A stretch of 64,000 nucleotides of DNA, from assembly GCA_030529385.1 (NCBI GenBank), contig JAUMWY010000001.1, forward strand, positions 88,479-152,478, written 5' to 3'. The translations under genes were made by a program, and so were the position numbers. Source of the stretch: Candidatus Saccharimonadota bacterium. Lineage in GTDB: Bacteria > Patescibacteriota > Saccharimonadia > Saccharimonadales > Saccharimonadaceae. Of this stretch, positions 18,994 through 23,154 are shown piece by piece. Within the stretch, counting starts at the first letter, position 1. The number at the start of each line of letters is the position of its first letter. Under the pieces are notes generated by a model. That model searched no databases and was not told the DNA's origin. It saw only the letters and a list, made by a program, of their open reading frames with translations.

Positions 18994-21252
18994 CTAATAA
19001 AACACACTATGGCGCATTGGTTGATTAGTGTATTCGCCGCGAACCGGTGTTGTCCTATTGATCCGAGTGCCGTCACCGAGCTGCCCCTGATGATTACGAC
19101 CAACCGTATACACCTGGCCGTCCTTGGTGAAAATCACCGTCGTACCATTACCACTCTGCACCGACGCCGCCTTTGGCGAGGTAGCTATCGTACCAAATTC
19201 TCTCATCTCGACAATTTGCCCCAATGCGGTCTTATGGAACGTTGTGCCATTGCCGAGCTGACCATGGCCATTATGCCCAGTGCCATACACCCTACCATTA
19301 TCACCAACAATAAAGACATTGTTATCATTCGCGCCGTACGCTGTGGCATAGATATCCACCGCCTTTACGCCCGGAGGCATATTAAATTTGATTGGCTTAT
19401 TAATATACCCTTCGTCAGCACTTGGATCGGAGTTGGCTAGTACATGCTGTTCGTTGTAGCCAATCCCCCACACCTCACCATTGCGCAAACGAAACACCGC
19501 AAACATTTCGTCGGATGAAACTTGCACGACATTTGATAGGCCTGGAATCTCCCTCACTTGAGGCAGCTGAAAACGCATTTGCTGCCTAGTATTTCCAGCA
19601 TCGCAGTTCTCAAGAGCTAGTTTCAGGGATCGTGTATCAACTAATGTAACACATTTGTTTATGCGAGAATTATCATCCCTACCCAAGGCTATTCTATTAG
19701 ACTCCTTCCTGCCGCCATCCAGCAACACCCTCCATTGCTGCGCTGGCGTCCCATTACAGTTAATAAACCGCAAGTCTCTCAGATTATGGCCAGTATTATC
19801 AAGGCACTTGCCATTTGCCTTTATTGCGCCCCGGTGATCCATTTCTAGCATCATGCCCGTCGGATTTCCTGTCTGGCAGGAGTAGGCGCTGGCCATTTCT
19901 GTCGTTCCCGCGCCATATCGATCCATGCAAACGCCATGATGGTAGAAATAACCATAGAACTGCTTTCCAGCTTCACCTCGTGAACTAAACCCTACGGTAT
20001 ACACCTTACCGTTATCTGCGACCGTATAGAAAGTATTGCCATTAAACGCCATCTGAGTCGCCTTCGGCCGGCCTGGCTGCCCAAAATTACCAATCCGAAC
20101 TGGCGTTGAGAAATGCGACACACCCGGCCTTTCAAGCTGATAGTTGACATTACTTCCCCAACCATACACTGTGCCACCCTGCATACGAACATACGCCGTA
20201 CGATTATCCGTCACGATCTCCTCTGTCGGAATGGTGTTCGGGTCGGATGGATTCGGCGTTGGCAGAGCAACACGCACCGGGCGGCGCACTGGCGGGCAAT
20301 GGTCCAGCCCAACCGACGCGCCATTGCCAATAAGGCCGGCCCGGCAATCGCCTGCGGCATAAATATTATTGTCAGAACCGAGCACAAAAGTCGCGTATCC
20401 TGTCGTCACGCTCCGAGCTTTAACACCGGCCGGAAGCTGAAACTTGACTGGCGTTTTCACCGCCCCGAGCGGCGCAGTGTCGTTGCCAATTAACCCTAGT
20501 TGATTATCACCCGATCCCCAAATATCACCATCGGTATTGCGAACAAACAGCGCGTAGCCGATGGATAGAAAATTCGTATACGATTGCACCGCCACGCCAA
20601 CTCCCGCCCCGGGCATTGTACTACCAAATACCACTGGATGAACTTCACCGTATATATTAGTCGCGCCGCTGCCAAGCTGGCCATGGCCATTAGCGCCCAC
20701 GCCGCGCACCTTGCCTTGCCCGTCTATCGCAGCAAAGAAAGTATCGTTATTAGCGCCGGCATAACGATATCCGAAGGTAACCGTATTCACTCGCTGCTGA
20801 GAGCCGATGATGATTTTCTGCGCATAACTATACGTCTTCATAACCTGGCCATCACCCACGCGCAACAATTCAGCATATCCAGTCGTCAGCACCGCCTGCG
20901 AGGCAGGGCCGCTATCCGGCAAAGACACAACAAAGCGAGTCCGTATATTGCCACTCGTCATGATATCCGCTCGCTCGCCCGATACGACTGTCCCGTCACA
21001 GCGAGATTGCGGCGTCAGCGGCTTACTATTTGTCCAGGCAGCGAGCATATTATTGCTTTGAAGGCAAGCTGTCGCCATAACAGAACCAGCCTCCGCCGCC
21101 TCTTTCGCAAGTTGATTGTAATATTGTTCGCGCAAGGCGGCCGCTGCTGACGACGCCAGTTGCAATGCAGCGACCAGCACCATTAGCAAAACAATACTCG
21201 CAACAACCACCGTCGGCAATACAAACCCTTGCCGCCGCACAATTCCTCTCAT
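18994..21252 (-). CDS. Exported RCC1-repeat protein with inserted ricin-type lectin domain
   Basis: 752 residues. A pilin-like N-terminus (RRQGFVLPTVVVASIVLLMVLVAALQL-type helix) is followed by a helical region like a prepilin stalk. Several RCC1/alpha-tubulin-suppressor-like blades follow, each with a GxGxNGxGQLGxG-type loop (for example GANGHGQLGSG, GTGHNGHGQLGNG, GRNHQGQLGDG). A beta-trefoil lectin-like segment with QQWRV and paired Cys (about residues 440-570) is inserted before the last blades. This suggests a surface or pilus-tip sugar-binding adhesin (inference). Start ATG 21252 is 6 nt after TACATT. Its promoter spacer is a run of ten G on the coding strand, which could vary expression. 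Confidence 0.85.
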   Translation of the reverse strand: MRGIVRRQGFVLPTVVVASIVLLMVLVAALQLASSAAAALREQYYNQLAKEAAEAGSVMATACLQSNNMLAAWTNSKPLTPQSRCDGTVVSGERADIMTSGNIRTRFVVSLPDSGPASQAVLTTGYAELLRVGDGQVMKTYSYAQKIIIGSQQRVNTVTFGYRYAGANNDTFFAAIDGQGKVRGVGANGHGQLGSGATNIYGEVHPVVFGSTMPGAGVGVAVQSYTNFLSIGYALFVRNTDGDIWGSGDNQLGLIGNDTAPLGAVKTPVKFQLPAGVKARSVTTGYATFVLGSDNNIYAAGDCRAGLIGNGASVGLDHCPPVRRPVRVALPTPNPSDPNTIPTEEIVTDNRTAYVRMQGGTVYGWGSNVNYQLERPGVSHFSTPVRIGNFGQPGRPKATQMAFNGNTFYTVADNGKVYTVGFSSRGEAGKQFYGYFYHHGVCMDRYGAGTTEMASAYSCQTGNPTGMMLEMDHRGAIKANGKCLDNTGHNLRDLRFINCNGTPAQQWRVLLDGGRKESNRIALGRDDNSRINKCVTLVDTRSLKLALENCDAGNTRQQMRFQLPQVREIPGLSNVVQVSSDEMFAVFRLRNGEVWGIGYNEQHVLANSDPSADEGYINKPIKFNMPPGVKAVDIYATAYGANDNNVFIVGDNGRVYGTGHNGHGQLGNGTTFHKTALGQIVEMREFGTIATSPKAASVQSGNGTTVIFTKDGQVYTVGRNHQGQLGDGTRINRTTPVRGEYTNQPMRHSVFY

Positions 21253-21258
21253 GCTTAT

Positions 21259-21310
21259 AATGTAGCACCCCCCCCCCGACAAAAGTCCACCCTGTCAGCT
21301 TTTGTCGGGG
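21259..21310 (-). promoter_or_regulatory. Promoter with C10/G10 tract and 12-bp inverted repeat
   Basis: On the minus strand the -10 TACATT (21259-21264) is separated from a -35-like GACTTT (about 21282-21287) by 17 bases that include ten consecutive G (plus-strand C, 21268-21277). CCCCGACAAAAG (21274-21285) is exactly complementary to CTTTTGTCGGGG (21299-21310), so the tract overlaps an inverted repeat in the divergent promoter between this gene and tRNA-Arg(TCG). The tRNA has its own TATAAT at about 21316. Confidence 0.55.
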
Positions 21311-21332
21311 TGTGGTATAATACTGATGGTAT

Positions 21333-21409
21333 GCGCCCGTAGCTCAGCGGATTAGAGTGCTTGGCTTCGAACCAAGTGGTCGCACGTTCGAATCGTGCCG
21401 GGCGTACCA
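21333..21409 (+). tRNA. tRNA-Arg (TCG), CCA encoded
   Basis: Acceptor GCGCCCG/CGGGCGT with a G-U first pair, anticodon stem CTTGG/CCAAG, loop CTTCGAA giving TCG, CCA encoded. A TATAAT box lies about 12 bases upstream. Confidence 0.95.
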
Positions 21410-21417
21410 TTTTTTCT

Positions 21418-21494
21418 GCCCCGTTAGCTCAACTGGATAGAGCGTCGGTTTCCGGTACCGAAGGTTGCAGGTTCGATTCCTGTGCGGGGTACCA
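21418..21494 (+). tRNA. tRNA-Arg (CCG), CCA encoded; recombinase attachment locus
   Basis: Acceptor GCCCCGT/GCGGGGT, anticodon stem TCGGT/ACCGA, loop TTCCGGT giving CCG, T arm GCAGG/CCTGT with one G-U, CCA encoded. The convergent serine recombinase frame ends inside this tRNA, which marks its 3' end as the likely integration site. Confidence 0.94.
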
Positions 21495-23154
21495 CGATAC
21501 TCTTACACGAAACATTGTCAGAGTGAATATTGAGCTGAACCCCCTTGGCTAGCCCCGAGGGGGTTTCTGCACGGGCAGCCTTCCTAACTGGAGCTGACAG
21601 TAGCTGGTTGAAAGGTTGTCGGGGTGTTGCTGTGATGGTGCGTAGTGGTTCTGGGGCGGCATCATCATGCGGGTTGACCGCGATGTGATCAAAGAAGACA
21701 TTATTGAGCAATTTCTTCAGAGCGTCCGGCGCACTGACATAGAGCCGGTAGCAGTCTTCGAGGAGGTTGAGTGCCTCCGTGAGATGGTTTTCGACTTCCT
21801 CCTTATCGGCACTTAGTGTCTTAATCTCATGATCAATAAGTCCGAGCTGCCTTGAGATGCGCTCTTGCTCCTGCTTCATGAGTTCGATGGGAACTGCGTC
21901 AGCATAGTGAGCCTGTAAAAGCTTGGCTTGTTCGTCCTGGAGCTTGTTCCGTTGTGCCTCGAGATTCTTCGTGTAGCTTTGCTGCTGCTGGTAGATGCGG
22001 TCGAGTTCTGCCCGCAGGTAGACCTCTATGGACTCCCGGTCTTTGTGAGTGAATTGGATGGAGTGGTAGAGCGATGCGATCCTCTCTTCTACCTCTTCAA
22101 TGAGAACGGCTTTGAAACTACAACTGCCCCGATTGCGTTGCCGGTAGGAGCAGACGAAGTATGGATAGATGTCGCCGCTGCGTGCTTTGGCCATGTGGAC
22201 AATCAGCCTGCCTCCACATTGTCCGCACCGGATGGTGGTCTTGAGGTGGTGGTTGTGAGTTCGCTGCCGTTCGCCGCTGCGGTGCTGCGACAACACGCTC
22301 TGAACGGTATGCCAGGTGTTCTCATCAATCAGCGGCTGATGCTGACCTGGATATTCAATCCCTTGGAATACCACTACTCCCCGGTAATACGGGTTGCGCA
22401 AAAGATCAAGGAGCCTGTTTCGGTCAAGCGTGCGAGCAGGGCGCGATGGCGTGGGGAGCGTTGTGAGGCCTTGTGCCATGAGGCGTTCAGCAAGCGAGGA
22501 AAGTGTCCATTCTCCCGTAGCGTAGAGTTCGAAGGCTTGGGTGATAAGGGGGCCGCGGGTGGGGTCGGTGTCGACCCAGCGGGTTTCTCTGCCTTGAGGG
22601 TCGCGGCCTTGTTTGTTGAGGTAGCCTAGGGGTGCTTTGCCGATGGTGCCGCCGTTTTTGGCTTTTTGGCTCATGCCTTTGATGACTTCGTTGGCGAGGT
22701 TGCGTGAGTAGAATTCGGCGATGGAGGCCATGATGCCGTGCATGAGGATGCCGCCGGGGGTTTGGTCGATGTTTTCGGTGGTGGAGATGAGGCGGACGCC
22801 TGCTTGTTCGAGGGCGCGGTTAATGTCGACATCGTCGGCGCGGTTGCGGGCGAGGCGGTCGAGTTTGTGGACGATGACGAAGTCGATGTCGCCGCGTTCT
22901 TGGATGTAGGTGAGCATTTTTTGGAGTTCGGGGCGTTTGGCGCTGCGGGCGGATTCGCCTCGGTCGACGAATTCTTTGACGATGAGGGCGCCGATGCTGG
23001 CGGCTTTCTTTTTGTTGGCGTCGCGTTGGGCGGGGATGGAGAAGCCTTCGAGGGCGCCGCCTCGGGCTGCTTGTTCGCGGGTGGAGACGCGGATGTAGGA
23101 GATGGCGCTTTTGGGGGTCATGGCTTGGGTCATGGCGTCGAGGGGGTCAGTCAT
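21424..23154 (-). CDS. Large serine recombinase/integrase
   Basis: 576 residues. The resolvase N-domain starts ISYIRVSTREQAARG (catalytic Ser about residue 23) and includes VDRGESARSAKRPEL and HKLDRLARNRADD. A recombinase domain follows (about 190-300), then a zinc-ribbon (IRCGQCGGRLIV ... FVCSYRQRNRGSC) and a long coiled coil (about 360-450). Such enzymes integrate and excise mobile elements. Shine-Dalgarno AGGAGG precedes ATG 23154. The N-terminal half uses almost only C-ending codons, unlike its neighbours and like actinobacterial DNA. The last residues (PRTGIEPATFG and beyond) are antisense of tRNA-Arg(CCG), so the original C-terminus probably ended earlier, near the terminator at 21538. 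Confidence 0.92.
   Translation of the reverse strand: MTDPLDAMTQAMTPKSAISYIRVSTREQAARGGALEGFSIPAQRDANKKKAASIGALIVKEFVDRGESARSAKRPELQKMLTYIQERGDIDFVIVHKLDRLARNRADDVDINRALEQAGVRLISTTENIDQTPGGILMHGIMASIAEFYSRNLANEVIKGMSQKAKNGGTIGKAPLGYLNKQGRDPQGRETRWVDTDPTRGPLITQAFELYATGEWTLSSLAERLMAQGLTTLPTPSRPARTLDRNRLLDLLRNPYYRGVVVFQGIEYPGQHQPLIDENTWHTVQSVLSQHRSGERQRTHNHHLKTTIRCGQCGGRLIVHMAKARSGDIYPYFVCSYRQRNRGSCSFKAVLIEEVEERIASLYHSIQFTHKDRESIEVYLRAELDRIYQQQQSYTKNLEAQRNKLQDEQAKLLQAHYADAVPIELMKQEQERISRQLGLIDHEIKTLSADKEEVENHLTEALNLLEDCYRLYVSAPDALKKLLNNVFFDHIAVNPHDDAAPEPLRTITATPRQPFNQLLSAPVRKAARAETPSGLAKGVQLNIHSDNVSCKSIVVPRTGIEPATFGTGNRRSIQLS
21538..21565 (+). terminator. Intrinsic terminator of the tRNA-Arg pair
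   Basis: AACCCCCTTGG pairs with CCGAGGGGGTT (one G-U) over a 6-nt loop and ends in TTT. It lies inside the 3' end of the recombinase frame, which suggests those codons were not originally part of that gene. Confidence 0.75.

Follow-up and report, generated by a model that had tools for sequence, protein, structure and literature searches.

A poly-G tract in a promoter spacer as a candidate contingency switch for a pilin-headed RCC1/ricin-lectin gene in Saccharimonadaceae

Neisseria meningitidis controls the surface protein PorA through a poly-G tract of 9 to 11 G in the promoter spacer of porA. Surface expression is graded at 11G, 10G, and 9G, and a mutS mutant shows a higher rate of phase variation at this tract (PMC3639595). 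Among Saccharibacteria, PilX2 of Nanosynbacter lyticus TM7x is reported to be a minor pilin that carries an RCC1 propeller of seven blades and lacks a predicted PilD signal; its deletion leaves 4.6% of host cells bound, versus 10.6% with the wild type (PMC12206443). Slippage has also been reported for a gracilibacterial gene, as hypervariation of a repeat array, which is a different phenomenon (PMC6851277). Here we analyze the window, a 64,000-nucleotide stretch of a Candidatus Saccharimonadota bacterium of the family Saccharimonadaceae (assembly GCA_030529385.1, contig JAUMWY010000001.1, positions 88,479 to 152,478), in which a run of ten G precedes a gene encoding a pilin-headed RCC1 β-propeller protein with an inserted ricin-type lectin domain. 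In the open-access literature, we found no earlier report of promoters that switch by slippage in Saccharibacteria or in Patescibacteria at large, with subscription papers and preprints lying outside the search.

The tract occupies positions 21268 to 21277 and reads as C10 on the forward strand and as G10 on the coding (minus) strand. Along the minus strand, TGGACT (21289-21284) is followed by TTTGTC, the G10 tract, TGC, the -10 box TACATT (21264-21259), ATAAGC, and the ATG (21252). The -10 box thus stands 3 nucleotides (nt) past the tract and 6 nt ahead of the start codon, a layout shared with the pilin promoters of relatives. The first-pass annotation had placed a G10 run between TACATT and a -35 region, as is indeed the case, and had taken GACTTT for the -35 element. 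This hexamer exists at 21287-21282, 17 bp upstream of TACATT, but it shares none of its six positions with TTGACA. TGGACT matches four of the six and, although weak alone, is the best candidate, giving a spacer of 19 bp (TTTGTC, G10, and TGC). The arrangement expected of a porA-type switch, with some 8 or more identical bases separating the two promoter boxes, is found in the window, albeit with a weak -35 (4/6), and is clear-cut in relatives.

Recurrence of the same architecture in the family carries most of the argument. A pattern of TTGACA, 2 to 12 nt, and at least eight G was found in 66 of 394 family genomes; its 290 matches (overlapping ones counted) compare with 5 when the pattern is reversed. 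The poly-C version occurred in 12 of the 394. In the loci read, TA directly follows the tract in 72 of 84 TTGACA-linked cases versus 12 of 39 tracts without TTGACA, and a TANNNT lies within 12 nt after it in 79/84 versus 10/39. G10 alone is present in 37 of 151 family genomes, with a very uneven spread. When 30 G10 loci were chosen without any promoter criterion, a -35 matching at least 5/6 positions was seen in 10, compared to 3 in the mirrored control, and both boxes at 4/6 or better in 14 versus 3. At the order level, the TTGACA-linked G8 pattern marks 12/107 family genomes and 1/188 others, and in a phylum-wide sample it marks 4/24 and 15/356, respectively. Outside the family, genomes G679, G610, G894, and G731 each have several TTGACA-N-G8 promoters, with the same geometry in the loci read.

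The spacers of these promoters behave as expected if tract length drifts around an optimum. Ordinary tract-free TTGACA promoters within the tract loci peak sharply at 17 bp (17/39), whereas the spacers of tract promoters are spread, with a mode at 18 to 19 bp. Moreover, orthologous secreted-protein genes from different species (MSKxTKIIAALGVV...) have G9, G11, and G12 between nearly identical flanks, and their tract-free orthologues have 17-bp spacers. Paralogous promoters also differ within single genomes (G10/G14 in G364; G11/G10 in G058 and G312), and copies of equal length occur elsewhere (all G8 in G007; G10/G10 in G254). All of these are consensus lengths from metagenome-assembled genomes (MAGs), and a paper on a meningococcal strain voices the same caution about tract lengths from short reads (PMC4577077). 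Differing lengths between matching flanks are thus seen in the promoters of relatives, and the window locus is represented by one genome. No close second genome was found for it: within the genus, the remaining genomes yield matches to the tRNA portion or to distant homologues only, and a scan of genome contigs returned two distant relatives.

The genes placed under tract promoters tend to encode exported proteins. A hydrophobic N-terminal segment is encoded by 25 of the 48 genes directly downstream, versus 118 of 480 among the remaining genes of these loci (p = 1e-4), and pilin-like products account for 6/48 versus 13/480. This contrast in hydrophobic N termini is real but moderate, because the targets also include a class of acidic proteins that are apparently cytosolic. 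The domains encountered include N_methyl pilins, leucine-rich repeats (LRR), BspA-type LRR, Listeria-Bacteroides repeats, TIG, collagen, and a glycine-rich domain. In the pilin-type targets, the ATG lies 13 nt past the tract in six cases and 14 nt in one, close to the 15 nt of the window. Such short distances would imply leaderless or nearly leaderless mRNAs, and the transcript of the window gene is probably leaderless.

Two groups of targets deserve a separate mention. The acidic proteins, which have no signal peptide and often carry a tryptophan motif near the N terminus, were seen at L101, L106, L140, L152, L153, L157, and L160, and one further target (L102) has a GNAT domain. Proteins beginning with M[TP]RLP[TH]PG.D.G.WG lie under poly-G promoters at L065, L125, L127, L092, and L138, sometimes in several copies per genome; the member at L065 is collagen-like.

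The window gene itself (18994-21252, minus strand, ATG start) encodes a protein with Pfam matches to RCC1 repeats and a Ricin_B_lectin domain, an architecture also drawn from its relatives and from a weak structural model. Its N terminus, MRGIVRRQGFVLPTVVVASIVLLMVLV, resembles that of a pilin, but position +5 holds proline where glutamate is usual. Neither this glutamate nor a Pfam N_methyl match is present in the window protein, as judged by the homologue alignment and the Pfam search. As in class III signals, a G-F cleavage site is followed by a long hydrophobic helix (residues 14 to 66 in the AlphaFold model). G9 and F10 are invariant in the alignment, as is the GF.LP motif among the homologues, and the site reads GF[VAT]LP. 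Both this N-terminal helix and strands of propeller type are visible in the model, but its mean pLDDT of 53 makes it too weak for a fold search. Two full-length relatives, 38 to 40% identical, occur in G016 and G006, both with residues in the region of the lectin insert, and a paralogue in the same genome (C13, L025) follows the same plan without the insert. With its pilin head, RCC1 repeats, and ricin lectin, the product is predicted to be surface exposed; an RCC1 β-propeller fused to a minor pilin is also the arrangement of PilX2-like tip adhesins, and to judge by its domains the window protein looks like a PilX2-type minor pilin with an added lectin.

Long G/C runs are not what chance would leave in this genome (657 kb, 87% complete, 27 contigs, with the window on a contig of 154 kb). 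Pattern searches and selected stretches gave 16 runs of at least 7, namely, eight of 7, four of 8, two of 9, and two of 10. Since about 0.08 ten-mers would be expected genome-wide, judging from how fast shorter runs thin out with length in the window, the two observed show that long runs are in excess. Eight tracts reach a length of at least 8, of which three lie in promoter spacers, one within signal-peptide codons, and four at coding sites where the reading frame changes. Besides that of the window gene, the tract promoters are that of a pilin gene on C23 (TTGCCA-17-TATAAT, G8) and that of a small protein with a signal-peptide-like N terminus on C9 (TTGACA-19-TACGAT, G9). The tract within signal-peptide codons belongs to a Big_8-domain protein and is in frame. 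The frame changes, across tracts of G8 to G10, are at L022 7327, L023 4728, L025 5868, and L077 4992; the gene at L023 adjoins one for a PilB-type ATPase.

Taken together, the shared architecture and the differing lengths in dozens of relatives make promoter-spacer phase variation of the porA type the best reading. These bacteria probably use slippage to switch their surface proteins between on and off states, and we consider it quite probable that G10 in the window is a contingency locus of this type that switches a PilX2-like tip adhesin. That slippage alters expression, and that the window locus switches in living cells, we infer from the family pattern and the layout of the locus. The core proposal of the first-pass annotation, slippage in the promoter spacer of a surface gene, is thereby strongly supported by the relatives, without its GACTTT element. 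Several observations weigh against this reading. The -35 of the window is weak, and neither its -35 nor its -10 word scores better than shuffles (p ~0.4 each), so that support for the promoter comes from the relatives. Upstream of the 40% identical relative in G016, no G/C run of 6 or more was seen. Finally, tract lengths in MAG consensus sequences are uncertain, and four of the five coding tracts of the genome (8 to 10 G) coincide with frame changes that may reflect either genuine off states or errors of assembly.

In the proposed mechanism, replication slippage would change the number of G between the -35 and -10 boxes and thereby move the spacer off, or back to, the 17-bp optimum. This shift would in turn alter the strength with which RNA polymerase transcribes the gene for the putative pilus-tip adhesin, read as a minor pilin of PilX2 type that bears an RCC1 propeller and a ricin-lectin insert. 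G10, giving a 19-bp spacer, is predicted to be weak, and G8 strongest. No MutS (PF01624/MutS_I) was found in any of 54 family genomes, tract-rich and tract-poor alike, whereas the control search matched 11 of 14 named genomes; with all 54 lacking a match, MutS presence could not separate the two groups. On a wider scale, we lean, if only slightly, toward a family phasome: a set of poly-G switches in promoters, which probably escape correction because MutS is missing, would randomly combine secreted adhesins with pilins that bind hosts. Each population would then contain cells suited to different hosts, and the design would recur sporadically elsewhere in Patescibacteria.

Other explanations of the tract were weighed against these data. 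Poly-G might serve as a fixed spacer element, through stiffness or a bend, with neutral drift in length and no meaningful switching. That the known tract lengths are consensus values alone fits this idea, which is nevertheless unlikely given that tract spacers spread widely while ordinary promoters keep 17 bp, that tracts are enriched ahead of surface-protein genes, and that orthologues manage without one. A translational role is distinctly improbable. Here, slippage would decide whether an upstream TTG start (21282) shares the frame of the pilin open reading frame (ORF), and the listed ORF does open at this TTG and read through the tract. The pilin signal, however, begins at the ATG at 21252 or at a GTG just after it, where the homologues align; a start within the promoter would require a different transcript; and in relatives the tract precedes the -10, 13 to 14 nt from the ATG. 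We regard it as very improbable that the tracts are sequencing or assembly artifacts, with G runs overcalled or lengthened by two-color chemistry or polymerase slippage. Such errors would not single out, across 66 genomes and mostly on one strand, the interval that separates TTGACA from TATAAT, even though some of the tracts in the family are found at the ends of contigs, the coding tracts of this genome break frames, and exact lengths may be wrong.

The remaining alternative makes the G run an incidental expansion of one arm of a functional inverted repeat, an operator or a cruciform shared by the divergent promoters. The repeat reported at the edge of the tract is real: CCCCGACAAAAG (21274-21285) and CTTTTGTCGGGG (21299-21310) form perfect 12-bp arms, the left one sharing four bases with the tract, and would extend to 14 bp were the tract G4. 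Its hairpin folds better than 200 of 200 shuffles (z = -5.9), and the repeat is not a chance occurrence. The right arm lies within the spacer of a good divergent promoter on the other strand (CTGTCA-18-TATAAT, with TG ahead of the -10; 21292-21321, plus strand), which serves a tRNA-Arg (TCG) gene (21333-21409, plus strand), and the repeat therefore spans both promoters. These features favor an element in its own right. Yet CTTTTGTCGGGG is absent from all other loci examined, the repeat being unique to the window locus, which indicates that other tract promoters work without it. Because of this absence and the overlap with the tRNA-Arg promoter, the sequence comparison lends no support to a role for the repeat, and we consider the alternative quite unlikely compared with promoter-spacer slippage. 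An intrinsic terminator at the repeat was rejected, as no T run follows it and no terminator is called there.

The surroundings of the repeat show further features. TTGTCGGGGTG occurs exactly twice in the genome, at 21302-21312 and 21616-21626 (plus strand) of the window, 314 bp apart, with one copy in the inverted-repeat arm and the other near the end of a serine recombinase gene; the pair is a possible att-like repeat. The large serine recombinase ORF (21424-23154, minus strand) runs antisense into a tRNA-Arg (CCG) gene (21418-21494), so that its last codons read the tRNA, and a possible integrated element adjoins the tRNA pair.

How episymbiotic Saccharibacteria recognize and change hosts is an open question, for which a role of a PilX2-type pilin in binding was recently shown. 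If the proposed switching is correct, cells of different attachment types would be mixed within a clonal population, which would bear on variable infectivity, on failed single-clone host assays, and on MAGs that break at tract loci. As far as our search shows, no promoter phase variation based on slippage has been described before in Patescibacteria, and this would be the first case, by a mechanism that is itself of a known kind.

Compared with TM7x PilX2 of the T4P-2 pilus, the window protein shares the pilin head, the noncanonical signal, the RCC1 propeller, the affiliation with Saccharibacteria, and a probable host-binding role; it differs in its extra ricin-type lectin insert, the comparison being one of described features. 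The passages of the TM7x report consulted here say nothing of a tract that governs pilX2 (PMC12206443). The coding contingency genes of Campylobacter, Helicobacter, and Neisseria similarly carry G tracts subject to slippage, but theirs switch the reading frame, whereas the window tract lies upstream of the start codon. The closest parallel is porA, with its poly-G of similar size in the promoter spacer of a surface-protein gene. In Patescibacteria, by contrast, the tract usually abuts the -10, the pilin ATG follows 13 to 15 nt after it, and some species have many tract genes per genome; expression graded by tract length is a feature of porA.
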